Below, piece by piece: positions 2,020 to 32,719 of a DNA stretch of 32,719 nucleotides. The translations under genes were made by a program, and so were the position numbers. The notes beneath the pieces were generated by a model. That model did no database searches, was not told where the DNA came from, and saw nothing but the letters and a program-made list of their open reading frames with translations. Source of the stretch: Hydrocoleum sp. CS-953 (lineage in GTDB: Bacteria; Cyanobacteriota; Cyanobacteriia; Cyanobacteriales; Microcoleaceae); contig NZ_LGSU01001500.1 in the NCBI RefSeq assembly GCF_002260545.1, positions 1 through 32,719 on the forward strand. Reading direction: 5' to 3'. Within the stretch, counting starts at the first letter, position 1; every line of letters begins with the position of its first letter.

Positions 2020-2532
2020 CAGTGGATTCCAGGTTGATGAAGTACGGTGGCACTAAATTTTTAAATAGTTTTTGAAGTATGGAATTAAATTTTCACTCAA
2101 AATTAGCAAATTTACTAGAATCATGGATAATTGATAATTGATAATTGATAATGAACAATGGATAATTATTTACAGCATATTTCGGGCAAATGATGTACAA
2201 GGTAAATGGCAAAAATATTGTATTGCGGGCATCTTGCCAGGGATGATTGTACCTCATAACAGTCGATAATGGATAATTGATAATTGATAATGAATAATTA
2301 CAGCGAATTTCAGGTTGATGAAGTACGGTGGCACTAAATTTTTAAACAGTTTTTGAAGTCTGGAATTAAGTTTTCACTCAAAATTAGCAAATCTACTAGA
2401 ATCATAGATAATTCATAATGAATAATTACAGCAAATTCCATGTTGATGAAGTACAGTGGCACTAAATTTTTAAATAGTTTTTGAAGTCTGGAATTAAGTT
2501 TTCACTCAAAATTAGCAAATCTACTATAATCA
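2020..2532. repeat. Three direct copies of a ~105-bp repeat
   Basis: Copies start at about 2020, 2301 and 2429. Each runs from CAG(T/C)(G/A)(G/A)ATT through GATGAAGTAC(G/A)GTGGCAC and ends near AGCAAAT(T/C)TACTA. They differ at only a few positions. Spacing is uneven (281 then 128 bp) with ATTGATA/ATGAATAAT tracts between, so this is not a CRISPR. No ORF runs through the units. Function is unknown. Confidence 0.85.
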
Positions 2533-13474: not shown

Positions 13475-16400
13475 TCACACAATTGGTAAGATAATTCTAA
13501 AGATCGTACCTTCTCCAACAGTCGAGTCACAGGTGATTTCACCACCATGTTTCTCAGTGATAATTTGATGAGCGATCGCCATCCCTAAACCTGTTCCCTT
13601 CCCTACTCCTTTCGTGGTAAACCCTTGCTCAAATATCCGCTCTTTCGTTTCTGGTTTCATTCCACTACCATTATCTTCTATTTCTATCTTGACTTCATTT
13701 TCATCTACATTGGCAGTGCTTATGTTTATTTGATTCGGTTTTTTCTCTATTTCAGCATAAGTTTTACCCACATTCGCCTCCTCAAAAGCATCTATTGCAT
13801 TTGCCAAAATATTCATAAATACCTGATTCAACTGACCTGGAAAACATTTGATTTCCGGTAGTTCCGCATATTCTTTAATTGTTTCTATTGCCGGACGTTT
13901 ATCATTAGCTTTAGTACGATGTTTGAGAATTACTAAGGTACTCTCTATGCCATCATGGATATTAAACTTCGTCTTATGCTCCTGATCTTTGCGGGAAAAT
14001 ATTCTCAGACTGGTACTGATATTTTTCATCTGCTCCACTCCCACATTCATTGACTTTAATATCTTGGGAAAATCTTCTCGTAGATATTCCAAATCAATGT
14101 CTTCGGCATGATCTTCTATTTCTTCAGCAGCAGTATTCTCTTCATATAGCTCCAAATGTTCTAATAAGTCAGTTAGGTTGTCTTGAGCCATGGAAATATT
14201 ACCAGCAATGAACCCTAATGGATTATTAATTTCATGGGCAACACCAGACAGCAAACTTCCTAATGCTGACATTTTCTCACTTTGAACTATTTGTAGTTGT
14301 GCTTTTTGTAAATCTCGCAGTGCTTGTTGAGCTTGCTCATAGAGTTGAGCATTTTTCAGAGCAATGGCAGCTTGAGCGCAGAGAAATTCAATTATTGTCT
14401 GCCGTTGTGTCGTAAACACACCTTTGGTTGTAGGATGTTCTAAGTACAAAATAGCCACTAAATCACCTTGATGCAATAGTGGCACACAAAACACACTTTG
14501 GGGCTGATAAGTAAGTAAGTACCCTTCGAGGATGCCAGTGATTTCGGTTTTGCTTTCATTAATGAGTACAACGGACTGTGTATTTTTCACATATTGAATC
14601 AAGCGAATGGGTACTGGACTCTGTATAGTTAGAGGTTGTGAGTAGGTATCAGTCTCTATTGTACCATCTGTTGTCAGTTGTGCTATTGCCCGCAGTTGCC
14701 ACCGTTCACTTTCTGTAATCAATAAAACAGCTTTTTGTGCCCCAGCATTGGTGAGAATAATCTGTAGAATGTTGCCTAATAGTGGTTCCAACTCTATGAT
14801 ACTGGAGATGGCTTGAGCTGCTTGTAAAATAGCTGCCAAATCTAAGGTGTCAGATAATCCCGTGCTAGTAGTTTGAGTGTTTGTTTTTGAGGTTAGTGTT
14901 TGAGTCACCCACTCGATACTATCAAGGGGATTCAATTCTACCTGTTGCTGTTGCAGGATCGGGGTAAGTAGTTGACGGTATTTTGCTTCTAGTTGATTAA
15001 TCTTAGCTTTAGCTTCCCACCGAGCATAACAATAGTAAGCTTCTTGCATATAGCCTGCTGCCACCTTCTGTTTACCCCAGTCGAGGTAGAATTTAGCTGC
15101 GAGTTCGTTAGCTAATGCTTCTTCTTGGAGATATTCGTTTTCTTTGGCTCCTGCTATAGCTTGGTCATAAAGCTCTATTGCTTCAAATCGTTCTCCTAAA
15201 ACTCGGTGGCGCTCTGCTGCTACTAAATCTACCTTATGTTGACCATTCATCGGAGCATAGTTAGCCCAGTATTGCATTTTTTTCTGATTAGTTTCAACCT
15301 TTTCGAGAATACTTTTCTGCACAGATGTCTCTGCATCACCATAATGAGCTAACTGAGTCAAGGAATCATAGAAATTCCACGCATACTCATCCAAAAAGGC
15401 TACAACCCCATCCAAATAAAACTCAGCTAGTGCAGCATTTTCCAATGCTTGGGGAATCTGATCGAATAAATAGCAAAGAATCAACTTATTCAGATAAACA
15501 TAATGCAGTGCCGTGCGGTCATTAGCAGCGATTTGAAACGGAACAGATTTAGTTTCATTATAAGCTGTTCCTATTAGTTCCCATGAAACTTCCGACTCTC
15601 CCAATAAATTGAGAACAGCTTGTTCAAAAGCTTGATTCCAAGCCAAGGTATTTTCTTGTTTCATAGTGGCGAGAGCATGACTTGTAGTTGCCATTTCCCC
15701 TTTAAGAGTAAAGAGGTTCTGACCCATTAAATAAAGGTATTGAGATCGGTTGGAGATAGCAAAACCCCCAAACTGGAAGTTTCCTGTATCAAGTCCAGCT
15801 TGGTAAGCCTTAAGTAACAAGGGAATAGCTTCCCTAACATGAGTCGAATAGTGACTGATGCAAGCCCCTGTAACATAAGTACCACTAACACCATCGCCTG
15901 TTTGGGGACTTAAATCCAACTTGCAAGCAAGTTTTCCATATTCCTGAGCTGAGGTAAAGTCCTGTAATACCAAAATACAAACTACGCCATAGTCGCCATA
16001 GATAAGTGCAGATTGGGGTGTATTTCCATATTGAATCAATAACTGCATCAGCTTGCAAACTACCCAAGGAAAAAGGCTGGGATTTGCCTGATAACAGGGT
16101 GCTATTAAATTTGCTAGAATCTTTACTTTTGCCAACTGGTTCTTATCGTCTATCAAAGGTAAGTCTGCTAAAGAGGCAATAGCTTTACCTTCCATCGCCT
16201 GAGAAATTGCTGCCAGTTCCACCTGTAAATCCTCAATGCCAGGTGATTCTGGAACCTTAATGCCTAATAAACCCAAGAACTCTATACCTATATTCAAAGC
16301 TGATAACTGTTCCGTTTGAGCCATCTTAGCCTGTATTTTAATTTCATGGACTTTCACCACATCGAGCAAGTCTTCCTGATGATTCAGAACTTGTTCAATT

Positions 16401-18841
16401 ATGGTTTCCATCAATTCAAAATCACCAGTCAGATAAGCTGCTTCTGCATAATTCTCATGTAATTTTAAGGCTAATTCATAATTCCTTTGCCAACTTTCTA
16501 CATCCAGTAAAGACAACGCTGTTTGAAAATATTGCAATGCTGCTGTATAAGCTGCCGAACCTTTAGCTTTTTCTCCCGCAGTTAAATTGAGTTGCATCAA
16601 ATTCTCTCTTTCTGTGGGTTCAGCGATTAATTCTATTGCCTGGTTCCAGTGATTAACAATTGTAAAAATCTTGCTCTCCTGTTCTTCTGGAGAAAGCTTT
16701 TTCGACAGTAACCTGCCGATGTGTAAATGGGTAGCTTGTTTTTGCCCTTGAGGAATTAGAGAATAAGCTGCTTGTTGCACTCGGTCATGTAAAAACCGAT
16801 AATTCACTGAAATGTTTTCTAAACTTTTCTCCTGTTGTTCCTCACCTTGGAAAAATTTATAACTGTCACTGTTGGGAATTACAAACCCTTCTTGTAAACC
16901 TCGCCATAAATTCCCTGCTACTTCATCTTGAGTCTGCTCACACACCACTGCTAATATGGCTAAGTCAAATTGGTTCCCTATACAAGCTGCTAGTTTCAGT
17001 ACATTATGATTAGTTTCTGGCAGTTTCTGCAACCGCCCTACCATAAATTCTACCACATCATCTGTGAGTGCTAACTGTCGTACTTCTGTTAGATCGCACT
17101 GCCAGTACCCTGCATCTGCCTCAAATTTAATACACTCATCTTCATGCAACCCTTTCAAAAATTGGGTGCTAAAAAACGGGTTACCCTTTGTTTTCTGATA
17201 GACTAACTCGGATAAGGGCGCTGCTATAGATGTCGCACACAATAATGTTTCAGCTACCAAACGATTAATATCTGTTTCACTCAAAGGTGTTAGAGTTAGA
17301 GTCTCAATATTTGCCCCTTGTTTATTAATTTCATCTAATGTCAACATCAATGGATGAGCTGGAAATACCTCGTTATCTCTATATGCTCCTAACACTAATA
17401 AATAACCAACTTCCGACTCATCCATCAATAACTTGAGCAAGTTTAACGATGCTGAGTCCGCCCATTGTAGGTCATCCAGGAAAATTACCAAAGGATGCTC
17501 TTTTGTGGTAAATACCCGTATAAATTTACTAAACAATAAATTAAAACGATTTTGCGCTGCACTTCCTGATAGTTCCGCAACTTCTGGTTGAGTACCAATT
17601 ATTCTTTCTACTTCTGGCACTACATCTATAATTACTTGTCCGTTTTCTCCCACCGCATCCAGAATTTTCCCTTTCCATACAGCTAGTTCCTCATCTGACT
17701 CCCCTAACAATTGTCCCATTAAATCTCGGAAAGCTTGCACGAAAGCAGAGAAAGGAATGTTGCGATTAAATTGGTCAAACTTCCCTTTAATGAAATACCC
17801 TCTTTGCTTAACTATGGGTTTATGTACTTCATTGACTACTGCCGTCTTCCCTATTCCAGAAAACCCTGCCACAAGCATCATTAGAGTTGCACCTTCAGCC
17901 ACAAGAGCGAATCCATCCAAGAGTTTTTGTACTTCTGTTTCTCGTCCGTAGAGTTTTTCTGGAATCATGAAGCGATCGCATAAATCTTTACTACCTAGCT
18001 CAAATTGTGTAATTTCTCCTGTTGCTTGTAACTGTTGTAAACATTGCTCTAGATCGTGCTTGAGACCCAAAGCACTCTGATAACGCTCTTCCGCATTTTT
18101 CGCCATTAACTTCAGTATTATATCCGACAATACTTGAGGAATTTCTGTCCTGTTCCCTATTTTTGGTATTTGGGCAATATGACAATGGACTAATTCCATG
18201 GGGTCGGTAGTAGTAAAGGGTAATTTTCCTGTTAGAAGTTCAAAAAAAGTTACACCTAGAGAATAGAAGTCGGTGCGATAGTCAATTCCTCGGTTCATCC
18301 GTCCAGTTTGTTCTGGGGAAATGTAAGCTAGAGTTCCTTCTAGGACGTTGGGACTAATTAGTTGTTGTTGTTCTTTGGGCAGTAGAGTAGAGATGCTAAA
18401 GTCTATCAGTTGGACTTGCTTGGTTTCCGGATTTATAATAATGTTACCTGGTTTAATGTCTTTGTGAATGATGCGCTGTTGGTTCAGATAGTGGAGAGCT
18501 TCACTCAGTTGAATAGCGATGTGGAGAAAATTGCTGAGAGTTTGCTCTGAGTTTTGCCAATAATTTAAAAGAGCGATCGCTCCATTATCTGGCATCACCA
18601 AGGCGTAACTATTACCGTAGCGTTCTAGGGCTAGAGGTTGCACAATAGCTGGATGTTCCAGATGACGGGTGATAATGTATTGATTACGGAATTGGACTAA
18701 TTCATTGAAAGTGGGGTGGGGGTTGCGTAATACTTTAATAATTACTGGTTTCTGGTCACAGATACGCTGGCCACGATAGACCATAGTGCGCGTACCTTGG
18801 TATAAGTTTTCGCTTAGGTAGTAGTTAGGAAGGTTAAGCAT
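13475..18841 (-). CDS. Hybrid Ser/Thr kinase-AAA ATPase-GAF-histidine kinase (copy 1, C-type A)
   Basis: This 1788-aa HstK-type signalling protein is predicted to be cytosolic, as no membrane helix is seen. Ser/Thr kinase, residues 8-270: Lys36 (VIIKVLRN), catalytic loop HKDIKPGN (126-133), metal site Asp147 in DFS rather than DFG, and [11 protein letters not shown]. ATPase, about 295-640: Walker A GFSGIGKT (326-333) and Walker [10 protein letters not shown] (454-462). About 700-1310 is a helical TPR-like region ending in [16 protein letters not shown] and [10 protein letters not shown] is about 1335-1500. A coiled coil leads to the phospho-acceptor His1536 (GVAHEINNP), N-box about 1675-1685, DNGSGMK about 1724 and GTGLGM about 1750. 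Cues, substrates and any partner response regulator are unknown; none is encoded in the window. It differs from copies 2 and 3 at the extreme N-terminus and lacks their linker insertion. Confidence 0.92.
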   Translation of the reverse strand: MLNLPNYYLSENLYQGTRTMVYRGQRICDQKPVIIKVLRNPHPTFNELVQFRNQYIITRHLEHPAIVQPLALERYGNSYALVMPDNGAIALLNYWQNSEQTLSNFLHIAIQLSEALHYLNQQRIIHKDIKPGNIIINPETKQVQLIDFSISTLLPKEQQQLISPNVLEGTLAYISPEQTGRMNRGIDYRTDFYSLGVTFFELLTGKLPFTTTDPMELVHCHIAQIPKIGNRTEIPQVLSDIILKLMAKNAEERYQSALGLKHDLEQCLQQLQATGEITQFELGSKDLCDRFMIPEKLYGRETEVQKLLDGFALVAEGATLMMLVAGFSGIGKTAVVNEVHKPIVKQRGYFIKGKFDQFNRNIPFSAFVQAFRDLMGQLLGESDEELAVWKGKILDAVGENGQVIIDVVPEVERIIGTQPEVAELSGSAAQNRFNLLFSKFIRVFTTKEHPLVIFLDDLQWADSASLNLLKLLMDESEVGYLLVLGAYRDNEVFPAHPLMLTLDEINKQGANIETLTLTPLSETDINRLVAETLLCATSIAAPLSELVYQKTKGNPFFSTQFLKGLHEDECIKFEADAGYWQCDLTEVRQLALTDDVVEFMVGRLQKLPETNHNVLKLAACIGNQFDLAILAVVCEQTQDEVAGNLWRGLQEGFVIPNSDSYKFFQGEEQQEKSLENISVNYRFLHDRVQQAAYSLIPQGQKQATHLHIGRLLSKKLSPEEQESKIFTIVNHWNQAIELIAEPTERENLMQLNLTAGEKAKGSAAYTAALQYFQTALSLLDVESWQRNYELALKLHENYAEAAYLTGDFELMETIIEQVLNHQEDLLDVVKVHEIKIQAKMAQTEQLSALNIGIEFLGLLGIKVPESPGIEDLQVELAAISQAMEGKAIASLADLPLIDDKNQLAKVKILANLIAPCYQANPSLFPWVVCKLMQLLIQYGNTPQSALIYGDYGVVCILVLQDFTSAQEYGKLACKLDLSPQTGDGVSGTYVTGACISHYSTHVREAIPLLLKAYQAGLDTGNFQFGGFAISNRSQYLYLMGQNLFTLKGEMATTSHALATMKQENTLAWNQAFEQAVLNLLGESEVSWELIGTAYNETKSVPFQIAANDRTALHYVYLNKLILCYLFDQIPQALENAALAEFYLDGVVAFLDEYAWNFYDSLTQLAHYGDAETSVQKSILEKVETNQKKMQYWANYAPMNGQHKVDLVAAERHRVLGERFEAIELYDQAIAGAKENEYLQEEALANELAAKFYLDWGKQKVAAGYMQEAYYCYARWEAKAKINQLEAKYRQLLTPILQQQQVELNPLDSIEWVTQTLTSKTNTQTTSTGLSDTLDLAAILQAAQAISSIIELEPLLGNILQIILTNAGAQKAVLLITESERWQLRAIAQLTTDGTIETDTYSQPLTIQSPVPIRLIQYVKNTQSVVLINESKTEITGILEGYLLTYQPQSVFCVPLLHQGDLVAILYLEHPTTKGVFTTQRQTIIEFLCAQAAIALKNAQLYEQAQQALRDLQKAQLQIVQSEKMSALGSLLSGVAHEINNPLGFIAGNISMAQDNLTDLLEHLELYEENTAAEEIEDHAEDIDLEYLREDFPKILKSMNVGVEQMKNISTSLRIFSRKDQEHKTKFNIHDGIESTLVILKHRTKANDKRPAIETIKEYAELPEIKCFPGQLNQVFMNILANAIDAFEEANVGKTYAEIEKKPNQINISTANVDENEVKIEIEDNGSGMKPETKERIFEQGFTTKGVGKGTGLGMAIAHQIITEKHGGEITCDSTVGEGTIFRIILPIV

Positions 18842-18903
18842 AATATATTAGTAAGCAGATTTAATTTAGGTAGACTTCAAGTTTTTAGTGAGATTTTAGC
18901 AAT

Positions 18904-18991
18904 AGACATCTCCAAAAATGAAAAATAAAATCAATTCTTATCTAAAAATTGTCAATTATTTCTCCCTGTTCCCTCTTTTCTGGAGATGTCT
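18904..18991. mobile_element. MITE-like element, family IV
   Basis: The 88-bp element has AGACATCTCCAAAA at one end and TTTTCTGGAGATGTCT at the other, close to perfect inverted repeats. AAT flanks both sides (18901-18903 and 18992-18994). It occupies half of the 166-bp gap between giant kinase genes 1 and 2. Confidence 0.7.
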
Positions 18992-19007
18992 AATGACAAT
19001 GACTAGG

Positions 19008-22000
19008 TTAAATGGGAATATCTATCATAAATTCAGTACCTTTTTCCAGTTGAGAAATACACCTTAATTTTCCTCCATGTTGCTCGGTTACTATTTGGTA
19101 ACTAATAGACAACCCCAGTCCTTTTCCTTGACCAACTGGTTTGGTCGTGAAGAAGGGGTCAAAAATACGTTGCTGAACAGTTGCGCTCATTCCTGGCCCA
19201 TTGTCAGCAATGGAAATCCTGATAGTCTGGTTGTTCTGTATTTGAGTGGCGATCCTAATTTTAGGACACTCTTGCACTTCCGAGATAATTAAAGCATCAA
19301 TGGCGTTGGTGAGAATAGACAGAAACACTTGATTGAGTTGACTGGGGTAGCAGTTGACTGGAGGTAGTTGACCATAGTTTTTCACTATGACAATATCTGG
19401 TTGGGAACCATTAACTCTGAGGCGATGTTGCAAAATCATTAAGGTGTTCTCTAATCCTTCATGGATGTCTACTTGCTTTCTTTGAGATTCGTCGAGACGT
19501 GAGAAGTTGCGTAAACCGAGAATAATCTGGCGAATGCGATCGCCACCTACTTGCATAGAATCAAAGATTTTTTCTATGTCGTCACATAAGAATTCTAGGT
19601 CTATTTCTTGTAACTTGTCTTGTATAACAACACTGGGGACGGAGTTTTCCTGGTAAAGGTTGAGCAGGTCGAGTAAGTCCTCGACATACCCGCGAGCGTG
19701 ACTGATATTGCCTGAAATAAAGGTGATGGGATTATTAATTTCATGGGCAATTCCTGCTACCATTTGACCTAAAGAAGACATTTTTTCGGTTTGGATGAGT
19801 TGAGTTTGAGTCTGCTGCAATTGTTCCAGGGTTTGTTGCAAGTGTTGGTTGTTCTCTTGGAGTTCTTGGGTTCTCTGTTGAACTTTAAGTTCTAGGTTAT
19901 GGCTATAGTTTTCTAGATGTCGGTAAAGTCTAGCGTTCTCAATGGAAATGGCGGCTTGAGCGGTAAGGAGCTTAAGAACTTCCAGTCGCTCTGAAGTGAA
20001 CGCTTCTGTGGTGAGATGGTTTTCCAGGTAGAGGATGCCAATAAGTTTTCCTTGGTTAATCATGGGAGTGCAGAGGAGACTTTTAGGTGGTTGTTTGAGC
20101 AAGTATAGATCGGCACTGAAGTTGTTGTTCTGTTCGAGGTTGTTGAGTAGCAGTGTCTTTTGAGTTCGTTTCACAGTATTGATGATGCTGCGAGGTATGG
20201 TATCGGTTTGATCTAGGGAAATAATGCTTATATCACAACTTTTGTTATTGCATTGAGCAACAATTTCCCAATTATCAGGCTTATTTAACAATAAAACTCC
20301 TTTGTTAGCCCCCGCATTCTCAATTAAAATCTGCATTAACTTAGACAGCAATGCATCAAGTTCGATTTCTTCAGATATAGTTCTGGAGGCTTTGATAGCA
20401 GAGGTATGGTCTAGGAAAAGAGTTGTGCTAGTGACTGTATCTGAGGCTTGACTAGAGATGAAATTGTTATAGGAATTACCAGTTTCTCTTGTTTCCAAGA
20501 TGGCGGTGAGAAGTTGAGAATATTTTGTTTCGAGCTGGTTGGTTTTTGCTTTTGCCCCCCAACGGGCGTAGCAATAGTAAGCTTCAATCATATAGTCGGC
20601 AGCAACTCTGTTTTTGCCCCACTCAAGGTAGAATTTGGCTGCTAGTTCGTTAGCTAGTGCTTCTTCTTGGATGTATTCATTTTCTTTTGCTCCTGCTATA
20701 GCCTGGTCGTAAAGTTCTATTGCTTCTGCTTTTTGTCCTTTAACTCGGCAAATTTCTGCTGCTACCAAATCTACCTTATGTTGATAATTCATGGGAGCAT
20801 AATTCGCCCAATGCTGTTGCAGTTTTGCTTGGTTGGCTTCTACTTGTGCAAAGATTTCTGATGTTTCCCCAGACTTTAAACTTAAAGCTGCTAAAGCCGT
20901 CAAAGAATCATAGAAATAAAACACTGGTTCACCAATGAGTCCGACACCTGCCACTAAATATTTTCTGACTTCAATTGCCTGGTTTTGAGCTGATTCAATT
21001 TCTTCAAATAAATAGTCAAGCATCAGCTTATATATATAGAAGAAATACAACGCAGCAAATTGACGCGCTTTTAGCAATTCTAGAGACTCAACTTCTTGGA
21101 AAGCTTCACCAGACAAGATAGTTGGATTTTCTGCAACTCCCAGCAAATTCAACATACATTGCCAATGGATTCGACACCTACTAGCTGTGGTTAATAGATT
21201 CAATTGCACTAGAGCATGGCAGTAAGTACGAGTTTCCGGCTCCAATATCACAAGAGGCTTACCGCACCAAAAAGAATTGTAGCAAATGGTTTGAGCATTA
21301 TATCCCGCATCTTCTACCTTTCCCACTTCTAGCCCGACTCCATAACCCTCTTTCAGCACTGGTAGTGTTGTGTTGATGTGAAATTGTCGGTGTAAAATGA
21401 AGTATCCCAACACACATAATACCTGGGGTTTAACAGCTTTAGCATCCATTTTTGCAACGAGATCGAGTGCTAATTGACCAAACTTAACCCCTACATCCAC
21501 ATCTTGCTTGATATTGCAAGCAATTATCCCATAGGCAGCATAAGCGAAAGCTGAAACTGATATATTTCCATATTGAATGGAGAGCTTGACTGACAAAGAA
21601 ACCAATAAGGGAAATAAGATAGAGCCAGACATGGAAGCTGCTGGCATGATGCTGTTACTAATCTCAACAATGGCGATTTTTTCAACCTCTGTCATCTGAG
21701 GTAGGTGAATCAATTCTTTAATTTCCCTGTCTCCAATTAGTGTTTCAACTTCTGCAATTGCTTGTTTAATATCCTCCTTTGTAGGTTCCTCTGGAAAAGT
21801 GACACCTAACTTTTGTAAGAATTCTTGGGCAATGGCAATAGCTTGAGTCGGTTGACTTCGAGAAACATTAGATAGAATTCTAATGCGGTAAACATTCACC
21901 TGTTCTGATAAAGTATATGTCTGTGTAATTACCTTTTCAATGTACTGTTCCATAGCTTCAAAATCATTGCAGAGTGAAGCCAAGTCCGCCGTTAAGTTAT

Positions 22001-24428
22001 GGAATTCTAAACTCATTTCATATTGACGTTCCCAGAGATCCTCTCCCAGCAAAGATAATCCTGTAGTAGCATATTCACGACCTCCTTGGTAAGCGGTGGC
22101 AGCTCTGGCTTTGCGACAGGCAATTAGGTTTAGCTTGGCTAATTCATCTCGTTCTTTTTGTTGAATAATTAAGCCTTTTCCATAATTTAATTGATTCACG
22201 ATTTCAAAAATGTGGTCTACCCTTGCTTCTGGGGGTATCTGTTCCAGCAACAATTGTCCGATGTGGTAATGGGTTATTTGTTTTTGAGTATCTGGAATTA
22301 AAGAATAGGCTGCCTGTTGTACGCGGTCATGTAAAAAACGATAACCCACTGTTACCGTCTCATTTGTGGTCTGTTTGACACTACCTTGAAAAAAATTGTA
22401 CGTTTCACTTATGGGTAAAATCAACCCTTCAAGTAATGCTCCCCAAATATCTCCTGCTACCTCCTCAATTGATTTCTCACAAACTACTGCCAATGTCTCT
22501 AGCTCAAACTGATTTCCTATACAAGCTGCCAACTTCAACACTTTCTGCGTTGCTGCTGACAATTTCTGCAAACGTCCAGCCATGAATTCTACTACATCAT
22601 CTGTGATGGCTGCATTATGAACTTTCACTAGGTCACATTCCCAATAACCTAAACTATGATTAAATTTAATGAGTTGCTCTTCATATAACCCTTTGAGAAA
22701 CTGTGTTGTAAAGAAGGGGTTGCCTTGGGTTTTTTGATAGACTAATTCAGTTAAGGGTACAGCTAATTCTTGACTAGAGTTCAAGGTATCTGCTACCAAT
22801 TGATTAATGTCCTCTGGAGCTAATGCTTCCAAAGTAATGGTAGAAATAATAGCTTGATTTTTCTTGAGTTCACTCAAACTTAACATCAACGGATGGGCTG
22901 GAAATACTTCATTATCTCTATATGCTCCCAATAGCAATAAATATCCTCCTTCGCTACTACTCATTAAGACTTTCATTAAGTTTAACGATGCTGAGTCTGC
23001 CCATTGAAGGTCATCTAAAAATATTACTACCGGATGTTCAGGAGCGGTAAATACGGTAATGAACTTTTGAAACAATAAGTTAAAGCGATTTTGGGCAGCA
23101 CTGCCAGATAGTTCAGGAATTGCTGGTTGAGTACCGATAATATTTTCTAGTTCTGGTACTACTTCAATTATGAGTTGAGCGTTTTCTCCCAAGGCTTTGA
23201 GTATCTTGTTTTTCCAATTTGTCAGTTCTGTATCTGACTCACTCAGTAGTTGTTTCATCAAGTCTCGGAAGGCTTGCACAAAAGCTGAGAAGGGTATGTT
23301 GCGATTGAATTGGTCAAACTTCCCTTTGATGAAATAGCCTCGTTGCCTGACTATAGGTTTATGAACTTCATTGACAACTGCCGTTTTGCCAATACCAGAA
23401 AATCCTGCTACGAGCATCATTTCTGCTCTGACTTCACTCCCCTTCACCCCGCTTTCAAAAGGGGTTTGGGGGGAATTTGCAACTCTCTCAAAGGAATCAA
23501 GCAGGGTTTGAACTTCCTTTTCTCGTCCGTAGAGCTTTTCAGGGATGAGGAAGCGATCGCTCACATCCCGCGTTCTCAATTCAAAGGATGTAATTTTCCC
23601 TGTAGTTTCTAACTGTTTTTGACATTTCTCTAAATCATACTTCAAACCCAAGGCACTCTGATAACGGTCTTCGGCATTTTTAGCCATCAACTTCAGCACT
23701 ATTTCTTGCAACAATTCCGGTGCTTGAGTTGCTACTGGAAACTTGGCTTTCTGCGCAATATGACAATGCACCAATTCCATTGGATCGCTTGCATCAAATG
23801 GTAAATTCCCGGTTAGGAGTTCAAATAATGTTATTCCTAAAGAATAGAAGTCACTGCGATAGTCAATACCTCGGTTCATTCGACCAGTTTGTTCGGGGGA
23901 TATATAGGCCAGAGTCCCTTCTAAAACATTGGGGTTGAGCAGTTGTTGTTGTTCAGTAGGTAATAAGCTGGAGATACTGAAGTCTATGAGTTGGACTTGC
24001 TTGGTTTCGGGGTGGATGAGGATATTGGCGGGTTTAATGTCTTTGTGAATGATGTGCTGTTGGCTCAGATAGTGGAAAACTTCTGCTAATTGAATAGCAA
24101 TATTGAGGAAACTACTGAGAGTGTTCTCTGAGTTTTGCCAATAGTCGGAAAGAGCGATAGCTCCTGAATCTGGCATCATTAGAGCGTAGCCATTACCATA
24201 GCGTTCTAGAGTTATTGGTTTAACAATGGCTGGATGTTCCAGGTGACGGGTGATGATATATTGGTTCCGGAATTGGACTAATTCATTGATACTGGGGTGG
24301 GGGTTGCGTAATACTTTGATAATGACGGACTGCCCAGGGGAATTTCGGATAGCTCGATAGACTAGAGTGCGTGTTCCGGTATATATTTGGTTTGTTTCTT
24401 GATATGCAGGTAAGTTAAGTATCATCAT
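19008..24428 (-). CDS. Hybrid Ser/Thr kinase-AAA ATPase-GAF-histidine kinase (copy 2, C-type B)
   Basis: This 1806-aa protein has the same architecture as its neighbours. Kinase: Lys38, HKDIKPAN (128-135), Asp149 of DFS. A repeat-derived linker (about 318-335) precedes Walker A GFSGIGKT (342-349), with Walker [10 protein letters not shown] about 120 residues on. The TPR-like middle (about 700-1320) is strongly diverged from copies 1 and 3. GAF is about 1345-1500. A Gln-rich coiled coil (about 1505-1550, VQQRTQELQENNQHLQQ) leads to His1562 in GIAHEINNPITF. N-box ILTNAIDAL is near 1706, DNGPGM near 1741 and GKGLGLS near 1768. The GAF-to-end part matches the fourth gene at about nine bases in ten by eye. 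It starts ATG-ATG-ATA (MMILNLP) with no ribosome site. Autophosphorylation on both Ser/Thr and His is plausible from the motifs but untested here. Confidence 0.92.
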   Translation of the reverse strand: MMILNLPAYQETNQIYTGTRTLVYRAIRNSPGQSVIIKVLRNPHPSINELVQFRNQYIITRHLEHPAIVKPITLERYGNGYALMMPDSGAIALSDYWQNSENTLSSFLNIAIQLAEVFHYLSQQHIIHKDIKPANILIHPETKQVQLIDFSISSLLPTEQQQLLNPNVLEGTLAYISPEQTGRMNRGIDYRSDFYSLGITLFELLTGNLPFDASDPMELVHCHIAQKAKFPVATQAPELLQEIVLKLMAKNAEDRYQSALGLKYDLEKCQKQLETTGKITSFELRTRDVSDRFLIPEKLYGREKEVQTLLDSFERVANSPQTPFESGVKGSEVRAEMMLVAGFSGIGKTAVVNEVHKPIVRQRGYFIKGKFDQFNRNIPFSAFVQAFRDLMKQLLSESDTELTNWKNKILKALGENAQLIIEVVPELENIIGTQPAIPELSGSAAQNRFNLLFQKFITVFTAPEHPVVIFLDDLQWADSASLNLMKVLMSSSEGGYLLLLGAYRDNEVFPAHPLMLSLSELKKNQAIISTITLEALAPEDINQLVADTLNSSQELAVPLTELVYQKTQGNPFFTTQFLKGLYEEQLIKFNHSLGYWECDLVKVHNAAITDDVVEFMAGRLQKLSAATQKVLKLAACIGNQFELETLAVVCEKSIEEVAGDIWGALLEGLILPISETYNFFQGSVKQTTNETVTVGYRFLHDRVQQAAYSLIPDTQKQITHYHIGQLLLEQIPPEARVDHIFEIVNQLNYGKGLIIQQKERDELAKLNLIACRKARAATAYQGGREYATTGLSLLGEDLWERQYEMSLEFHNLTADLASLCNDFEAMEQYIEKVITQTYTLSEQVNVYRIRILSNVSRSQPTQAIAIAQEFLQKLGVTFPEEPTKEDIKQAIAEVETLIGDREIKELIHLPQMTEVEKIAIVEISNSIMPAASMSGSILFPLLVSLSVKLSIQYGNISVSAFAYAAYGIIACNIKQDVDVGVKFGQLALDLVAKMDAKAVKPQVLCVLGYFILHRQFHINTTLPVLKEGYGVGLEVGKVEDAGYNAQTICYNSFWCGKPLVILEPETRTYCHALVQLNLLTTASRCRIHWQCMLNLLGVAENPTILSGEAFQEVESLELLKARQFAALYFFYIYKLMLDYLFEEIESAQNQAIEVRKYLVAGVGLIGEPVFYFYDSLTALAALSLKSGETSEIFAQVEANQAKLQQHWANYAPMNYQHKVDLVAAEICRVKGQKAEAIELYDQAIAGAKENEYIQEEALANELAAKFYLEWGKNRVAADYMIEAYYCYARWGAKAKTNQLETKYSQLLTAILETRETGNSYNNFISSQASDTVTSTTLFLDHTSAIKASRTISEEIELDALLSKLMQILIENAGANKGVLLLNKPDNWEIVAQCNNKSCDISIISLDQTDTIPRSIINTVKRTQKTLLLNNLEQNNNFSADLYLLKQPPKSLLCTPMINQGKLIGILYLENHLTTEAFTSERLEVLKLLTAQAAISIENARLYRHLENYSHNLELKVQQRTQELQENNQHLQQTLEQLQQTQTQLIQTEKMSSLGQMVAGIAHEINNPITFISGNISHARGYVEDLLDLLNLYQENSVPSVVIQDKLQEIDLEFLCDDIEKIFDSMQVGGDRIRQIILGLRNFSRLDESQRKQVDIHEGLENTLMILQHRLRVNGSQPDIVIVKNYGQLPPVNCYPSQLNQVFLSILTNAIDALIISEVQECPKIRIATQIQNNQTIRISIADNGPGMSATVQQRIFDPFFTTKPVGQGKGLGLSISYQIVTEQHGGKLRCISQLEKGTEFMIDIPI
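23424..23477 (-). repeat. Repeat-derived coding insertion in kinase 2 linker
   Basis: Between kinase and ATPase, the codons for NSPQTPFESGVKGSEV have the C-run/G-run palindromic form (TTCCCCCC...CCTTTTGAAAGCGGGG on the coding strand). Copy 1 lacks this stretch. The same form occurs in kinase 3 and in the spacer near 30450-30485. Confidence 0.6.
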
Positions 24429-24493
24429 TATCAGCTAAATTGAGAAAAGATAATTGCTATGATTTTATATCAAATTCGTTGACTTTGGAGTAA

Positions 24494-24714
24494 TATCATG
24501 TCCGGTTGAACAGTGATAAATAAATAACCATGGAGGAGTCAGGAGTCGTAGGGGCGTTTTCCTGACGGAATGCTCCGCAAACATGTCGCGCAGCGAAACT
24601 GCCGTTAGCTTCGCATAACTATCGTTAACGCCCGTACAGGAGTCAGGAGGGAAGAAAGAAGAACAGGAAAAGAAGGAGAAAGTTTTTTTATCACGCTCTG
24701 ATCCGGACATGATA
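24494..24714. mobile_element. MITE-like element, family I
   Basis: The left end TATCATGTCCGG and the reverse-complemented right end TATCATGTCCGGA both continue to GTGATAAA. TAA flanks both sides (24491-24493 and 24715-24717). The core is palindromic, with GTAGGGGCGTT facing AACGCCCGTAC and AGGAGTCAGGAG on both sides. It also contains the GGAATGCTCCGCAAACA repeat. Confidence 0.7.
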
Positions 24715-24722
24715 TAAGATAA

Positions 24723-24879
24723 TATCAAATCCGGTAGTATCGGTGTAAAAAAGGGTAGAAACCGGGTTTATATGAAATTCCCTTGTACGGAGGTTGCATA
24801 ACAAAAATGCGAACGTCCCTACCATCTATCTCCCATAAACCCGGTTTCTTATAATACTCCGAAGCCAACGGATTTGATA
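24723..24879. mobile_element. MITE-like element, family I, with GAAACCGGGTTT stem
   Basis: The left end TATCAAATCCGGTAGTATC and the reverse-complemented right end TATCAAATCCGTTGGCTTC are flanked by TAA on both sides (24720-24722 and 24880-24882). Inside is a perfect 14-bp stem, AGAAACCGGGTTTA (24757-24770) with its complement at 24836-24849. Confidence 0.65.
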
Positions 24880-24911
24880 TAATTCCTAAAAGTGGTATCA
24901 TTTGGCGATTT

Positions 24912-27900
24912 TTAGGCTCTAGGCAGTGTAATAGTAAATATTGTACCTTCTCCCACTGTGGAATCACAGATAATCTTACCGCCGTGTTTTTCCGTAATAA
25001 TTTGATGAGCGATCGCCATGCCTAAGCCTGTACCTTTCCCTACTCCTTTGGTTGTAAAACCATGCTCAAATATTCTCTCTTTCGTTTCTGGTTTTATCCC
25101 ACTACCATTATCTTCTATTTCGATCTGCACTTGATTTTCATCTATTACAGAAGTATAAAGGGTAATTCGATTGGGATTTTCCTTAATCTCAGCTAATGTT
25201 TTACCCACATTTGCTTCCTCAAAAGCATCTATCGCATTTGCTAAAATATTCATAAATACCTGATTCAATTGCCCTGGAAAACATTCGACTAGAGGAATTT
25301 GCTCATACTTTCTCAGAATTTCTATTTCTGGACGTTTTTCATTAGCTTTGGTACGGTGTTTGAGAATCAGTAAGCTGCTATCAATTCCTTCATGGATATT
25401 AAAATTTGTCTTATGTTCCTGATCCTTGCGAGCAAATGTTCGCAAACTACTACTGATATTACGAATCCTCTCTACTCCCACATTCATCGAACCTAGCAAT
25501 TTCGGTAAATCTTCACGAATAAACTCCAACTCGATCGCTTCAATTTCTTCTGCTATAACTTCTGTTGGTTGAGGATATTCTGATTGATATAAATCTATTA
25601 AACCGAGTAAATCTTGTACATATTCTTGAGCAGGCTGAATATTGCCTTCTAAAAACCCTGTGGGATTATTAATTTCATGGGCAACTCCTGCCATTAAGTT
25701 CCCTAATGCCGACATTTTTTCACTTTGAATTATTTGCAACTGTGCTTGTTGTAAATCTTGGAGTGCTTGAGTCGCCTGGCGATAGAGTAGGGCATTTTGT
25801 AGGGAAATAGTAGCTTGAGTACAGAGAAATTGTACTATGGTCTGACGGTAGGAGGTAAAAACTCCTTTGGTAGTAGAATGTTCCAGGTACAAAATAGCGA
25901 CTAAGTTTCCTTGATGTAGCAATGGCAAACAGAGTACACTTTGGGGTTGGCGCTCTAGTAAGTACCCTTCAATAATTCCTGTGATTTCGGTTTGACCTTC
26001 ATTAATGAGTACAGTTTCTTGGGTATGTTTCACATATTGAATCAAACGTATAGGTACTGGAATTTCTGTAGTTAGTACAAGGGATGTAGTTGAGGTTTCT
26101 ACTGTGCCATCAGTTGCTACTTCGGCAGTTGCTCGTATTTGCCATTCGTCATTTTCGCGAATGAGTAATGCCGTTTTCTCAGCCCCAGCATTAATGAGAA
26201 TAATCTCTACAATATCTGCCAGTAGTTGATTAAGTTCAATGGTACTTGATAGCGCTTGAGTTGTTTGAAGGATGGAAGCTAAGTCTAAGGTTTCAGATAC
26301 TCCCGTCTTCGTGGTTTTACTGTGTGTAATTGATGTTAATTTTTCGGTAAGACTTTCTAGATTTTCCAAGGAATTTAATTCCTGCTGTTGTGGTTGGAGA
26401 ATAGGAATTAGGAGTTGGGGATAAGTTTGTTCTAATTTGTCAGTTTTGGCTTTTGCTCCCCAACGGGCGTAGCAATAATAGGCTTCTTGCATATAGAAGG
26501 CTGCAGTTTTTTTCTTACCCCGGTCTAAGTAAAATTTGGCTGCTAGTTCGTTAGCTAGAGCTTCTTCTTGAATGTATTCATTTTTTTGAGCAATCTCTAT
26601 AGCACTATCGTATAGTTCCATTGCTTCGTAAGGTTTGTTCAGTAAGCGACAATTTTCAGCTTCCACTAGATTCAATTTATGCAAATAGTTACTTGGCGCT
26701 AACTTTGCCCATTGCTTGAGTTTTTCAAGATCCTCAGCAATTGGTATGGAGTTTGCTAGCAGAATTAGAGCGTGATAAAAATAGAAGGCACCTAGCATTG
26801 CCGTTCCCGCAACACCAGCAATTTTAGATTCAGCTAACTTAGCAGTTTCTAGAGCGATATTTGGTGCAGCAAAGTGATAATTCAAGATCACTTTTTGGGT
26901 GTAGACGCTGCCAATGGAGCAAATATCTCCATCAGTTTGATGTTGAGGAAGACGCTCTGTTTCATTATAAACATTCCCTATAAGCATTGTAAGATCGTCA
27001 CTTTCTCCTAGCCAGTTGCAAACAGCTTGTTGTTCAATCTGATGGAAATTGAGAGCGATAGACTGTTTGAGATGAGCGAGTGCTACACCATAGTCATCCA
27101 GTTTTTGTCGAAGTTCTAGTAAATTTTCTCCAGAAAAGTAAGCTAGTAAGCAATGATTAAAAATACAGTATGAAGCAAACTCTAAATCACCTGATTCTAA
27201 TCCAGCTTGGTATCCCTCTAGTAATGGGTTAAGTGCATTTTGCAAATGTTCTTGCCAAATTCGCACAAATGGATAGACGAGGTTGAAAATTTTGGCTTTA
27301 TACTCATTGCTTTTAGACAATTCCATTAACCGTAAAGCAATACTTCCAGCATGATTTCCAGATTCTATTTCCCCATTCAAACAAAGAATTAATCCATAGG
27401 TTGAAAACGCATAACCTGTCTCAGCAGCGTAACCAAACTGTAGAGATAACTCAATTTGCTTGAGAACAATCAATGGGTACAATTCTGGAGCGCCAATATA
27501 GGCACCTGAAGCTATAGTGCTGAGAATGTTTATTGCTGTTAGCTTTTTGGGATCGCTCATGGGTTCTAGATTAGCAACATCGTCAATTTTAGCTAATTGA
27601 GACTTAATGTTAGCTAGGGCAGATTCCATTATAGCTGAATCTGGCTCTGGTAATTCTACATCTAAGGATTCCAAGAGTGTCCGCGCAACTTTTATTGCCT
27701 CTGTCAAGTTGCTCCGTCCAATTAAAGATTGAATCTGGATGGCGATCGCTTTGGCTTGTTCGAGGATATCTGTGGTGTTGTGAATAATAGTCGCAACTAG
27801 GCGATCGACAGTCTGAAATTCACCCATTAAGGAAGCTGAGTTCGCTCCTTCAAGATGTATTTCTAGCACAATGGCAAAGTTTTGCTCCCAGGCATTAGCA

Positions 27901-30320
27901 CTCAGGAGTTGTAGTCCAGTTTGGCAGTAATATGTAGCTGCTTCGTAGGCAGATGAAATTCTAGCTCTTCGTCCAGCTACAAGATTAAGATAGATCAGTT
28001 GCTCCTGCTCTTGCACAGAATCAATTTTCTCTCTACCCAAGTTGAAATGGTTGACGATCGCAAAAATATTTTCATCAAGTTTATTCTTAGGGGTTGTCTT
28101 GAAGAGTAGTTGTCCAATATGATAATGGGTTGTTTGTTTTTCTTCTTCTAGAATTAATGAGTAAGCTGCTTGTTGAACGCGATCATGCAAAAAACGATAA
28201 CCAACGGCAATATCATCAACACTTTGCTCCTTAAACTGTTCTCCCTGGAAAAACTTATAGGTTTCGCTTTGGGGAATTATCAAACCCTCTTGTAGTGCTG
28301 CCCATAAATTTGTAGCTACCTCCTGTTGACTTTCTTCACATACAACCACCAAAGTCCCTAAGTCAAACTGGTTGCCAATACAAGCTGCCAACTTCAGTAC
28401 ATTTTGAGTTTCTGCTGATAGTTTCTGCAACCGCCCGACCATAAATTCTACAACATCATCTGTCAGAGCTAACTGTCGTATCTGTGTCAGATCGCATTGC
28501 CAATACCCTACCTCCTGATCGAATTTAATCCAACCATCCTCATGTAACCCTTTCAAAAACTGGGTGGTAAAAAATGGGTTTCCTTTAGTCTTTTGATAGA
28601 CTAATTTAGACAATGGTGTGGCAATTTCTATTGTACACAACAGGGTATCAGCAACTAAACGAGTAATATCCACTGGCTCTAAAGCAGCTAATGTCAAAGT
28701 CTTGATATTGGCTCCCTGTTTATCAATTTCATCAAGTGCCAGCATCAATGGATGAGCCGGGAATACTTCATTGTCACGATATGCTCCCAATACTAGCAAA
28801 TAACCACTATCCGACTCATTCATCAATAACTTCAGCAAGTTCAATGATGCCGAGTCTGCCCACTGTAAGTCATCTAGGAAAATTACCAGGGGATGATCTT
28901 TTGTGGTGAATACCCTCATAAATTTGCCGAACAGTAGGTTGAAGCGATTCTGTGCTGCACTGCCAGACAATTCAGGTACTGGTGGCTGTTTACCGATAAT
29001 CTTTTCCAACTCTGGAATCACTTCTATCAGCACTTGCCCATTTTCTCCTACTGCCTCTAGGATTTTGATTTTCCATTTGGTTAGCTCGGCATCGGATTCA
29101 CTCAACAATTGACCCATCAAATCTCGGAAAGCTTGCACAAAAGCAGAGAAGGGTATGTTACGATTGAACTGGTCAAACTTGCCTTTGATGAAATAGCCTC
29201 TTTGCCTCACTATGGGTTTATGAACTTCATTGATAACAGCCGTTTTCCCAATCCCAGAAAATCCTGCTACTAAAATCATTTCTGCTCTTCCTTCTCCCTT
29301 CTTTTCCTCCCTTCTCCCCCTTTTCAAAGGGGGTAACGGGGGATTACTAACTCGTTTCTCCTGCGGAGACGCTAGGCGAACAAAGGCATCAAGTAGCTTT
29401 TGTACTTCAGTTTCCCGTCCGTAGAGTTTTTCAGGTATGAGGAAGCGATCGCATACATCCCGCGTTCCTAACTCAAACGATCTAGTTTTTCCTGTAGTTT
29501 CTAACTGTTGCAAACATTTCTCTAGATCGTGCTTTAAACCCAAGGCACTCTGATAACGGTCTTCGGCATTTTTCGCCATCAATTTCAGGACAATGCTTTG
29601 CACTACTTCTGGTACTTGAGCTTCTTTGGGAAATTCGCCTTTTTGAGCAATATGACAATGGATTAATTCCATTGGATCATCTACATCAAACGGTAACTTT
29701 CCTGTAAGCAGTTCAAAGAATGTTACTCCTAGAGAATAGAAGTCGGTACGATAGTCAATACCTCTGTTCATGCGTCCGGTTTGTTCCGGGGAGATATAAG
29801 CCAGAGTGCCTTCCAGAACATTTGGGTTGAGTTGTTGTTGTTGTTCAGTAGGTAGTAAGGTAGAAATACTAAAGTCTATGAGTTGGACTTGCTTGGTTTT
29901 GCGGTGAATGAGAATATTACTGGGTTTGATGTCTTTGTGGATAATACGTTGTCCACTCAGATAGTGGAGAGCTTCTGCTAGTTGGATAGCAATGTGGAGG
30001 AAACTACTGAGAGTTTGTTCTGAGTTTGGCCAATACTCAGAGAGGGCGATCGCTCCTGAGTCTTCCATTATTAAGGCATAACCGTTACTATAGCGTTCTA
30101 AGGCCAGAGGTTGTACAATTGCTAGATGTTTGAGGTGACTGGTGATGATGTACTGGTTGCGGAAGGTAACTAGCTCATTAAAGTTAGGGTGGGAGTTGCG
30201 TAATACTTTGACAATTACTAGCTGCCGAGGAGTTGCTCGGATAGCTCGATAGACCAAGGTGCGTGTTCCAGTATATATTTGCTTTGTTTCTTGATAACCA
30301 GGTAAGTTGAGCATCATCAT
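24912..30320 (-). CDS. Hybrid Ser/Thr kinase-AAA ATPase-GAF-histidine kinase (copy 3, C-type A)
   Basis: About 1802 aa. The frame opens at a GTG (30323), but the following ATGs give [18 protein letters not shown], matching copy 2, so the ATG at 30320 is used. Numbers below count from the GTG. Kinase: Lys39, HKDIKPSN (129-136), Asp150 of DFS. A repeat-derived linker (about 320-347, [15 protein letters not shown]) precedes Walker A GFSGIGKT (354-361); Walker B is FLDDLQWAD. The TPR-like middle (about 720-1320) is largely unlike copies 1 and 2. GAF is about 1346-1510. Phospho-acceptor His1549 is in [13 protein letters not shown]-box near 1698, DNGSGIK near 1743, GTGLGM near 1766. The histidine-kinase end resembles copy 1 (MSALG...KDQEHKT.FNIH), whereas the first 35 residues resemble copy 2. 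No ribosome site is visible. Confidence 0.92.
29282..29366 (-). repeat. Repeat-derived coding insertion in kinase 3 linker
   Basis: Codons for [11 protein letters not shown] and the Lys/Glu-rich stretch after it come from a C-run/G-run palindrome (AATCCCCC, ACCCCCTTTGAAAAGGGGG). Directly beside it, at about 29361-29385, lies CTGCGGAGACGCTAGGCGAA, another repeat-like phrase of cyanobacterial type. Copy 1 has neither. Confidence 0.65.
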
Positions 30321-30374
30321 CACCAGAAAAATTCAGAAAAGATAATTCTTATAATTTTACTACATTTTTACCTA

Positions 30375-30522
30375 CTAGCGTGTCTAGACTAAAATTGTGG
30401 GTGTTTGAGCAGCCACGAGCGAAGACCTCTCCTTCCAGGGAAGGTGAGATATCCCCCCTTCCCTTCCCTGGAAGGGGGTTAGGGGGTTAGGTTTTACATT
30501 TTCAAGCTTGACGCGCCACTAG
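30375..30522. repeat. Inverted-repeat unit with GC-rich stem
   Basis: The outer ends CTAGCGTGTC and, from the other side, CTAGTGGCGCGTC are loosely inverted. Inside, CCTTCCAGGGAAGG (30431-30444) is exactly complementary to CCTTCCCTGGAAGG (30462-30475). The adjoining C-run/G-run block is an intergenic relative of the insertions found in kinases 2 and 3. Confidence 0.55.
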
Positions 30523-30569
30523 AGTTTCAATAAAATTTGACTTCCTCAAAATTTGCTTGAATTATCATT

Positions 30570-30760
30570 AGACATCTCCGGGAAAGGGGGGGGGTAGGGA
30601 CGTTGCATGCAACGTCCCTACGGAGTAGATAGAAATATAGCCGTTTTCACAAAGGTAGACTACAAAACTTCTTCCTTCTTCCTTTAAACTCAAATCTCTG
30701 TACTCTAAAAAACATGAAAACTGCTATAATTGATTTGATTTTTGATTGTCGGAAATGTCT
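30570..30760. mobile_element. MITE-like element, family IV, second copy
   Basis: The left end AGACATCTCCGGGAAA and the reverse-complemented right end AGACATTTCCGACAAT are inverted repeats. ATT lies outside both ends (30567-30569 and 30761-30763). A perfect 28-bp palindrome sits near the left end. Confidence 0.6.
30594..30621. repeat. Perfect 28-bp palindrome
   Basis: The arm GTAGGGACGTTGCA is followed at once by its exact complement. It follows a run of nine Gs. It is the same type as 7348-7375, but inside an element with different ends. Confidence 0.9.
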
Positions 30761-30794
30761 ATTTGTTTGTAGTAGAGCTTTATATCAAATCCGC

Positions 30795-32719
30795 TTAATT
30801 TGGAATATCTATGATAAATTCAGTACCTTTTTCCAGTTGAGAAATACACAGTAATTTTCCTCCATGTTGCTCGGTGACTATTTGGTAACTAATAGACAAC
30901 CCCAGTCCTGTTCCTTGACCAACTGGTTTGGTCGTGAAGAAGGGGTCAAAAATACGTTGCTTAATAGTTTCGCTCATTCCTGGCCCATTGTCAGCAATGC
31001 AAATCCTGATAGTCTGGTTGTTCTGCATTTGAGTAGTGATACTAATTTTAGGATACTCTTGCGCTTCCGAGATAATTAAAGCATCAATGGCGTTAGTGAG
31101 AATAGACAGAAACACTTGATTGAGTTGACGGGCGTAACAATTAACTGGAGGTAGTTGACTATAGTTTTTAACTATAACAATATCTGGGCGGGAGTCATTT
31201 CCTCTGAGGCGATGTTGCAAAATCATTAAGGTGTTCTCTAATCCTTCATGGATGTCTACTTGCTTTCTTTGGGATTCATCCAGACGTGAGAAGTTGCGTA
31301 AACCCAGAATAATTTGGCTGATGCGCTCGCTTCCTGTTTGCATAGAATCAAACAGTTTTTCTAAATCCTCATATAAGAATTCTAGCTCTATTTCTTGTAA
31401 CTTGTCTTGTATAGCATCACTAGGAGCGGAGGAGTTTTCCTGGTAAAGGTTGAGCAGCTCTAGTAAGTCTTGGACATATTCGCGAGCATAAGTGATATTA
31501 CCTGAGATAAAGGTAATGGGATTATTGATTTCATGGGCAATTCCTGCTACCATTTGACCTAAAGAAGACATTTTTTCAGTTTGAATAAGTTGAGCTTGGG
31601 TTTGTTGTAATTTTTGCAAGGTTTGTTGCAAGTGTTGCGTTCTCTGCTCAACTTTAGTTTCTAACTCCTGGTAAAGTCTGGCGTTTTCGATGGATATTGC
31701 TGCTTGGGCGGTCAGCAGGTTAAGAACTTCTATGCGTTCTGGAGTAAAAGCTTCTGTAGCGAGGTTGTTTTCTAGATAGAGAATGCCAATCAATTTTCTT
31801 TGGTTGAGAATGGGACTGCAAAGGATACTTTTGGGTTGTTGTTCGAGCAAATATGGGTCAGTGGTGAAGTTATTGTCTTGTTCCAAGTTGTTAATGATTA
31901 AGGTCTTTTGCGTCCGTTTGATAGTATTAATAATTGTATAGGGTAGGTTTTCGGTTTGCTCTTGGGAAATAGTGCTTGTGTGACAAGTTTCGTAATTGTA
32001 TTGAGTGATTATTTCCCAATTATCAGAGTTATTTAACAATAAGACTCCTTTGTTAGCTCCTGCATTCTCAATTAGAATCTGCATTAATTTAGATACCAAG
32101 ACATTGAATTCAATTTCTCCAGAAATAGCCTGGGATGCTTTGATAGTAGAAGCCAAATCGAATGCAGAAGTCATGCTGGTAAAAGTGCCGAGAGATTGGG
32201 AGGAACTAGGAAAATCTGTTTGAGTAGAAACAGACTGAGAAGATTTTTGGAGGATAAGCGTTAGGAGTTGAGGATAAGTTTGTTCAAGTTGGTCAGTCTT
32301 AGCTTTAGCTCCCCATTGAGCATAGCAACTGTAAGCTGACTGCATATATCCGACTGCAAATTTCTCCTTACCCCAGTCTAAGTAAAATTTGGCTGCCATT
32401 TCGTTTGCCAAAGCTTCTTCTTGGATATATTCGTTAGCTTGAGCTTCTGCTATGGCGCGATCGTATAGCTCAATTGCTTCTAGTTTTTGCCCTAGACACC
32501 GATATCGTTCTGCCTCAACTAAAAGATATTTATGTAAAAAGTTTTCCGAACAACTATCTGACCAAATTTTGAGCTGCTGCTGATTTGATTCTATTTGCTG
32601 CCAAGCATTGCTCTGTTCTTCGGCAGACATACCAGAATACATATTAGAGTTGTTGGGAAATAAGGTAAAATGGTTCAAGCAGAAATTGGCCAGAAGAATG
32701 CTAAATATTGAACGAGCCT
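30795..32719 (-). CDS. Hybrid kinase, copy 4 (C-type B), truncated by window edge
   Basis: The frame is open to the right edge: upstream of the first TTG codon (32678) it reads through SIFSILLANFC with no stop. This is therefore the C-terminal part of a longer protein, not a complete gene. Visible in order are the end of the TPR-like region (EALANEMAAKFYLDWG, YSCYAQWG), GAF (about 32150 to 31690), a Gln-rich coiled coil (KVEQRTQHLQQTLQKLQQ), the phospho-acceptor His in GIAHEINNPITF (near 31531), N-box ILTNAIDAL, DNGPGM and GTGLGLS. From the GAF to the end it matches copy 2 almost base for base, with exact runs over 30 nt. The N-terminal kinase and ATPase are predicted to lie outside the window. 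The stop codon is followed at once by a MITE-like end. Confidence 0.88.
   Translation of the reverse strand, partial: ARSIFSILLANFCLNHFTLFPNNSNMYSGMSAEEQSNAWQQIESNQQQLKIWSDSCSENFLHKYLLVEAERYRCLGQKLEAIELYDRAIAEAQANEYIQEEALANEMAAKFYLDWGKEKFAVGYMQSAYSCYAQWGAKAKTDQLEQTYPQLLTLILQKSSQSVSTQTDFPSSSQSLGTFTSMTSAFDLASTIKASQAISGEIEFNVLVSKLMQILIENAGANKGVLLLNNSDNWEIITQYNYETCHTSTISQEQTENLPYTIINTIKRTQKTLIINNLEQDNNFTTDPYLLEQQPKSILCSPILNQRKLIGILYLENNLATEAFTPERIEVLNLLTAQAAISIENARLYQELETKVEQRTQHLQQTLQKLQQTQAQLIQTEKMSSLGQMVAGIAHEINNPITFISGNITYAREYVQDLLELLNLYQENSSAPSDAIQDKLQEIELEFLYEDLEKLFDSMQTGSERISQIILGLRNFSRLDESQRKQVDIHEGLENTLMILQHRLRGNDSRPDIVIVKNYSQLPPVNCYARQLNQVFLSILTNAIDALIISEAQEYPKISITTQMQNNQTIRICIADNGPGMSETIKQRIFDPFFTTKPVGQGTGLGLSISYQIVTEQHGGKLLCISQLEKGTEFIIDIPN

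Follow-up and report, generated by a model that had tools for sequence, protein, structure and literature searches.

Comparison of individual gene segments strongly supports mosaicism by recombination in an array of tandem kinase genes in Hydrocoleum sp. CS-953. Homologous recombination among tandem and dispersed HstK-type paralogues very probably exchanges modules between these genes, with the middle of the protein behaving as a replaceable sensor cassette. The window (the whole stretch of DNA analyzed, 32,719 nucleotides) is the complete contig G000:C559 of a draft assembly (8.39 Mb, 1501 contigs), so the assembly offers no DNA to the right of it. In filamentous cyanobacteria, few signalling proteins are as large or as numerous as the HstK-type kinases. 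Four tandem kinases had been predicted here; three genes are complete, encoding proteins of ~1,800 aa, while the fourth is a 3′ fragment, and all lie on the minus strand. These are c1 (13475..18841; 1788 aa), c2 (19008..24428; 1806 aa), c3 (24912..30323; 1803 aa), and the fragment c4 (30795..32640), which retains the end of a TPR-like region, GAF, and histidine kinase.

The proteins c1–c3 share the order Ser/Thr kinase (PK), STAND ATPase (AAA), TPR-like solenoid (TPR), GAF, and histidine kinase (HK). In c1, these correspond to residues 10–262 (Pkinase), 296–483 (AAA_16, STAND), ~660–1300 (the c1-type solenoid; 14942..16864, minus strand), 1350–1495 (GAF), and 1527–1786 (HisKA/HATPase_c). Pfam matches in the array proteins comprise Pkinase, AAA_16, GAF, HATPase_c, and a weak HisKA. 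The Pkinase match (~1e-34) is accompanied by intact VIIK/VIVK, HKD, and DFS motifs in c1–c3, and the P-loop NTPase module (AAA_16, 1e-38 to 1e-42) by an intact Walker A motif, GFSGIGKT, in the same three proteins. HATPase_c was recovered at 1e-21 to 1e-23 in c1, c2, c3, and c4; HisKA scored above the cut-off in c4, below it in c1 and c2, and was not listed in c3, and the histidine kinase boxes (AHEINNP, N and G boxes) are present. Matches shown to anti-phage defence models extend no further than the general Ser/Thr kinase domain and are uninformative. At least one GAF domain sits between the two kinase domains, as is characteristic of the HstK/cbSTKIII type, and the likeness extends to the N-terminal Ser/Thr kinase and the C-terminal HisKA and ATPase (Zhang et al., 2007; PMC2176072). 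By these domain criteria the array proteins are cyanobacterial dual Ser/Thr-His kinases of that type. The original prediction described them as hybrid kinases; a Pfam search for the Response_reg (receiver) domain found none in c1–c4, so they are dual (HstK-type) kinases and fall outside the usual meaning of hybrid histidine kinase.

No Pfam TPR family matched between ATPase and GAF at 1e-3. The region is modelled as an all-helical repeat solenoid (pLDDT ~90), and an AlphaFold model of c1 residues 281–1305 (mean pLDDT 82) predicts an NTPase and a helical solenoid. The top PDB match of this model is 6MFV, a STAND protein with a TPR sensor, though the match is moderate (13% identity, TM-score 0.42 by target length). 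In the linker from kinase to ATPase, c3 (residues ~321–345) and c2 (~316–335) carry in-frame inserts that c1 lacks; these resemble translated short interspersed repeats (a 13-residue stretch; TPFESGVKGSEVR...).

The histidine kinase motifs on which the prediction relied are present, and the C-terminal types run A-B-A-B as proposed. Identity over the HK segment is 71% between c1 and c3 (type A), 86% between c2 and c4 (type B), and 47%–50% between types; for GAF, the corresponding values are 68%, 71%, and 36%. The claim that c2 and c3 are nearest at the N-terminus likewise holds (81% vs. 75%). With two A and two B types, strict alternation has a one-in-three chance and is not significant in itself, and the fragmentary state of c4 means that it rests on three genes and one fragment. 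At one locus in a related genome (G002:C45), a B type adjoins a B type.

The fourth gene is incomplete, as had been noted, but not simply because of the window edge; c4 is most likely a kinase gene interrupted on its 5′ side by a mobile element. Homology of c4 to its kinase relatives (closest in G002:C304 and G051:C772) begins exactly at the junction with the last ~77–79 bp of the window (32641..32719, no strand assigned). This sequence, the end of a multicopy element, cuts c4, ends the contig, and recurs at more than 20 other places in the genome, nearly all of them contig ends. Its terminal sequence, AGAGTTGTTGGGAAATAA, occurs inverted at both ends of a short element in C346; no transposase was identified for the element, which is likely a main cause of the fragmented assembly. 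The genome was searched with the G051_772 TPR for the 5′ half that c4 lacks; this returned only paralogues at 50% or less, and contig-end overlaps gave no extension of the array past the element.

Separate trees of the segments had been named beforehand as the check on mosaicism, and for 14 full-length kinases they gave conflicting topologies, and breakpoints are sharp, bearing out the recombination that had been predicted. In approximately unbiased (AU) tests of PK, AAA, TPR, GAF, and HK, each main segment rejects the trees of all others (p at most 1e-4), TPR and the TPR tail being the closest pair of segments; larger FastTree and IQ-TREE trees agree on the main conflicts. The breakpoints lie in conserved islands, namely the kinase/Walker A region, the ATPase end, the conserved TPR tail, and the H-box. 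Within the array, c3 is c2-like to codon ~390, inside AAA. Across a breakpoint zone directly after the Walker A region (codons ~390–415; 29079..29156, minus strand), it gives way to an AAA resembling c1 and G051_457a, followed by a TPR of its own type and a type-A GAF and HK, the last closest to G003_743b and G002_69. The HK region of c2 appears homogenized with that of c4 (codons ~1520–1806; 19011..19871, minus strand; nucleotide and fourfold-site identity), at 84%–97% nucleotide identity and most clearly over codons 1700–1806. In HK, c2 and c4 share 86% of amino acids and 81% of fourfold sites, as compared with 81% and 66% between c2 and its G003 orthologue; in GAF they are lower, at 71% and 52%. 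Similarity above the orthologue level in HK and below it in GAF suggests local conversion.

The nearest named relatives of these genes belong to Okeania metagenome-assembled genomes (MAGs), chiefly SIO2F4 (G003), SIO3I5 (G002), and SIO3B5 (G051), and not to Nostoc or Anabaena. Orthologues of c1 were identified in G003:C629, G051:C457 (in which the HK part differs), and G002 (C189 and C10), and of c2 in G003:C629 (gene 629b) and, more distantly, G051:C457, G050:C16, and G049:C208. Mosaics are visible at the sequence level in two of these relatives, G003 and G051, and the c1-type TPR (75%–81%) is coupled in relatives to four different C-termini. In G003_743a, a c1-type TPR (81% of amino acids and 81% of fourfold sites vs. 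629a) is fused to a B-type GAF-HK (84/85 and 81/80 vs. 629b), with the switch at codons 1275–1300 in the conserved TPR tail. On the same contig (C743), G003_743b is a five-block mosaic consisting of a c1-like start, a c2-like block to ~735, a c1-like TPR, G002_69-like GAFs, and a c3-like HK. In G051_457b, a c1 orthologue carries a c3-like HK. Since the closest genomes are draft metagenome assemblies, an individual mosaic might conceivably result from misjoined contigs, though the mosaic blocks each differ by ~15%–20% from their nearest relative. The window and G051 have c2 followed by c1, whereas in G003 c1 comes before c2. At the G002 locus orthologous to the left flank of the window (hflX, glutathione synthetase; 92% nucleotide identity), the kinase upstream is a different one.

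Replacement of the middle as a block is seen most clearly at a single locus in two Okeania genomes, SIO1I7 (G050:C22) and SIO2B3 (G049:C124), where a kinase occupies the same place in syntenic DNA inside contigs of 427 and 101 kb. Flanking blocks on both sides are mostly 91%–96% identical in nucleotides, and the ends of the kinase genes are ~95% identical (codons 1–250 and 1225 to the end), as compared with amino acid identities of 72% in AAA and 31% in TPR. The two TPRs differ in their nearest relatives (60% to G002_69 and 58% to a gene of G029); as these were the best matches, no recent donor was found for either. A search for a third allele recovered the flank in G047, G048, and other genomes, with no kinase found beside it. 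A repeat of ~70 bp at positions ~1829–1898 of the sequence L219:13837-15734 is present in dozens of copies in genomes G047–G051.

Tandem arrangement of such kinases is widespread in filamentous cyanobacteria. A search of named genomes with c1 gave 79 loci, of which 26 contain at least two such kinases within ~21 kb, all in the same orientation. Across 32 pairs from the same locus, counting those of the window, PK, AAA, GAF, and HK are each closer than between unlinked kinases (p 5e-5 for every segment by permutation), whereas TPR is not clearly closer (p 0.06). The permutation assumes independent pairs, an assumption only partly satisfied, and the p-values serve as a guide. Median identities of tandem neighbours, without the pairs of the window and without one locus that has a recent duplicate, are 82.8 against a background of 64.2 for PK, 71.6 against 57.7 for HK, and 36.8 against 36.7 for TPR. 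On these sequence comparisons, tandem neighbours have alike ends and unrelated TPRs. The pattern is seen in isolate genomes as well as MAGs, including Kamptonema UHCC 0994 (L220, L205), Nostoc FACHB-110 (L237), and Plectonema LEGE 06105 (L226). The alternating array had been singled out as unusual; given that 26 of the 79 loci already carry kinases in tandem, with alike ends and unrelated centres, it is not the unusual part. One locus, in Lyngbya sp. CCAP 1446/10 (L197), contains a tandem of three kinases, of which two are alike over their whole length (TPR 85%); this gives that pair the appearance of a recent whole-gene duplicate, unlike the other pairs.

The original prediction explained the alternation by duplication of a two-gene A-B unit, and the alternating C-terminal types of the array, together with the adjoining A and B types in G003:C629, G003:C743, and G051:C457, agree with such an origin. 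The TPRs do not. Those of c1, c2, and c3 are mutually unrelated, at 33%–36% identity, as compared with 64%–81% for orthologous TPRs between genomes. A single clade of c2-type and c4-type TPRs is rejected (p 2e-9; c4 was represented by two relatives as proxies, its own TPR being mostly lost). A clade of c1-type and c3 TPRs is not rejected (p 0.28, with long branches leaving little power), yet c1 and c3 are only 34% identical here, against 78%–81% among c1 orthologues. Duplication of the A-B unit is thereby largely refuted by the TPR trees, the segments of c1/c3 and c2/c4 not all being sisters. A version in which the duplication was followed by limited recombination is very unlikely, considering also that the similarity of c2 to c4 jumps abruptly in HK and is lower in GAF, in the manner of local conversion, and that the order of c1 and c2 is reversed between genomes.

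It is equally hard to credit that no exchange took place and that paralogues of the same age merely kept conserved catalytic ends around a TPR evolving rapidly under relaxed or diversifying selection. Catalytic segments are indeed more conserved than TPR across the kinase set (background identity 66% for PK, 70% for AAA, and 37% for TPR), but among orthologues TPR is about as conserved as the ends (78 for TPR, 82 for PK, and 87 for HK in c1; 81 for each in c2). Furthermore, the trees of the conserved segments conflict among themselves, similarity changes in sharp steps at the codon scale, and the G049/G050 locus combines 95% identical ends and abrupt boundaries with TPR alleles of unrelated ancestry. 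Chimeric contigs produced by collapsed repeats are a most improbable source of the pattern: though the genomes are drafts with 500–1500 contigs and many contigs end within these genes, the window copies are mostly 60%–90% alike in DNA and thus too different for confusion over long stretches, the c2-c1 adjacency was recovered independently in G051, and the isolate genomes named above show the same pattern. As to process, repeated duplication with divergence and conversion of the ends, instead of insertion of a new middle, could also have occurred; the absence of a recent donor among the TPRs searched counts against the cassette reading.

If modules are exchanged as we propose, recombination between neighbouring and dispersed paralogues would take place in the conserved DNA islands, presumably through RecA-type homologous recombination or gene conversion. 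The Ser/Thr kinase and GAF-histidine kinase ends would be kept alike by exchange or recent duplication, with the STAND ATPase and TPR-like solenoid forming the replaceable sensor cassette. The solenoid, perhaps with GAF, may recognize a signal, upon which the ATPase would switch and assemble in an ATP-driven manner; assembly would activate both kinases, Ser/Thr at the N-terminus and histidine at the C-terminus, the latter probably passing its output to response regulators encoded elsewhere. A swapped middle would then place an existing output under the control of a new input.

Group X fungal hybrid histidine kinases combine a kinase-like domain, ATPase, GAF, and histidine kinase with a receiver; by this description the domain order is the same, though the receiver is theirs and none was found in c1–c4. 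STAND ATPases with a TPR sensor (6MFV) similarly place an NTPase before a TPR-type helical solenoid, to which the array proteins add kinase domains on both ends. The dual-kinase family and shuffling within it are already known: Zhang et al. (2007) described HstK (Alr2258) and the duplicated, adjacent, and co-transcribed pair Pkn40/41 (Alr0709/0710), found kinase, GAF, and HisKA trees incongruent across 38 dual kinases, and proposed domain shuffling. They also reported many dual-kinase copies in filamentous strains and counted one gene in Trichodesmium, whereas the Okeania genomes searched here hold many such kinases. Their paper, from which the words AAA and tandem are absent, does not deal with the STAND ATPase, the TPR cassette, replacement at a single locus, or tandem arrays, and no description of the sensor-cassette pattern was found in the open-licence literature. 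Paralogues of the fungal NWD/HET family, STAND proteins of allorecognition, diversify their recognition domain by exchange among themselves (PMC1805685). There, WD40 repeat units are exchanged under positive selection, whereas here whole TPR blocks differ; a recognition role for the cyanobacterial proteins is putative.

By analogy with plant and fungal NLR or allorecognition repertoires, filamentous cyanobacteria might maintain a recombination-fed repertoire of STAND-TPR cassettes, shuffled into shared two-headed kinase outputs, such that related strains differ in sensing at the same locus; we consider this broader proposal speculative and rather unlikely. Should the STAND-TPR middle prove to be an exchangeable sensor, the diversity of this middle would mark the recognition part, and strains that share an output but differ in the middle (the G049/G050 locus, tandem pairs) would offer ready comparisons for ligand finding. 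Such a system would also be a bacterial counterpart to module exchange in eukaryotic STAND receptors.

Elsewhere in the Hydrocoleum genome, kinase paralogues split by stops or frameshifts were observed on contigs C505, C392, C473, C178, and C515 of G000 (L092, L090, L091, L093, and L094, respectively), which suggests a birth-and-death mode of evolution in the family. One kinase region, with a TGA inside it, is shared by C465 and C554, perhaps through assembly redundancy. Outside the array, an intergenic stretch of the window (2279–2532) contains a 128-bp sequence in two tandem copies (94% matches) and, close by, short 7-bp repeats. A gene at 7589–9238 on the minus strand encodes a urea transporter (UT, PF03253) with C-terminal EF-hands, predicted to be possibly a calcium-regulated urea channel.
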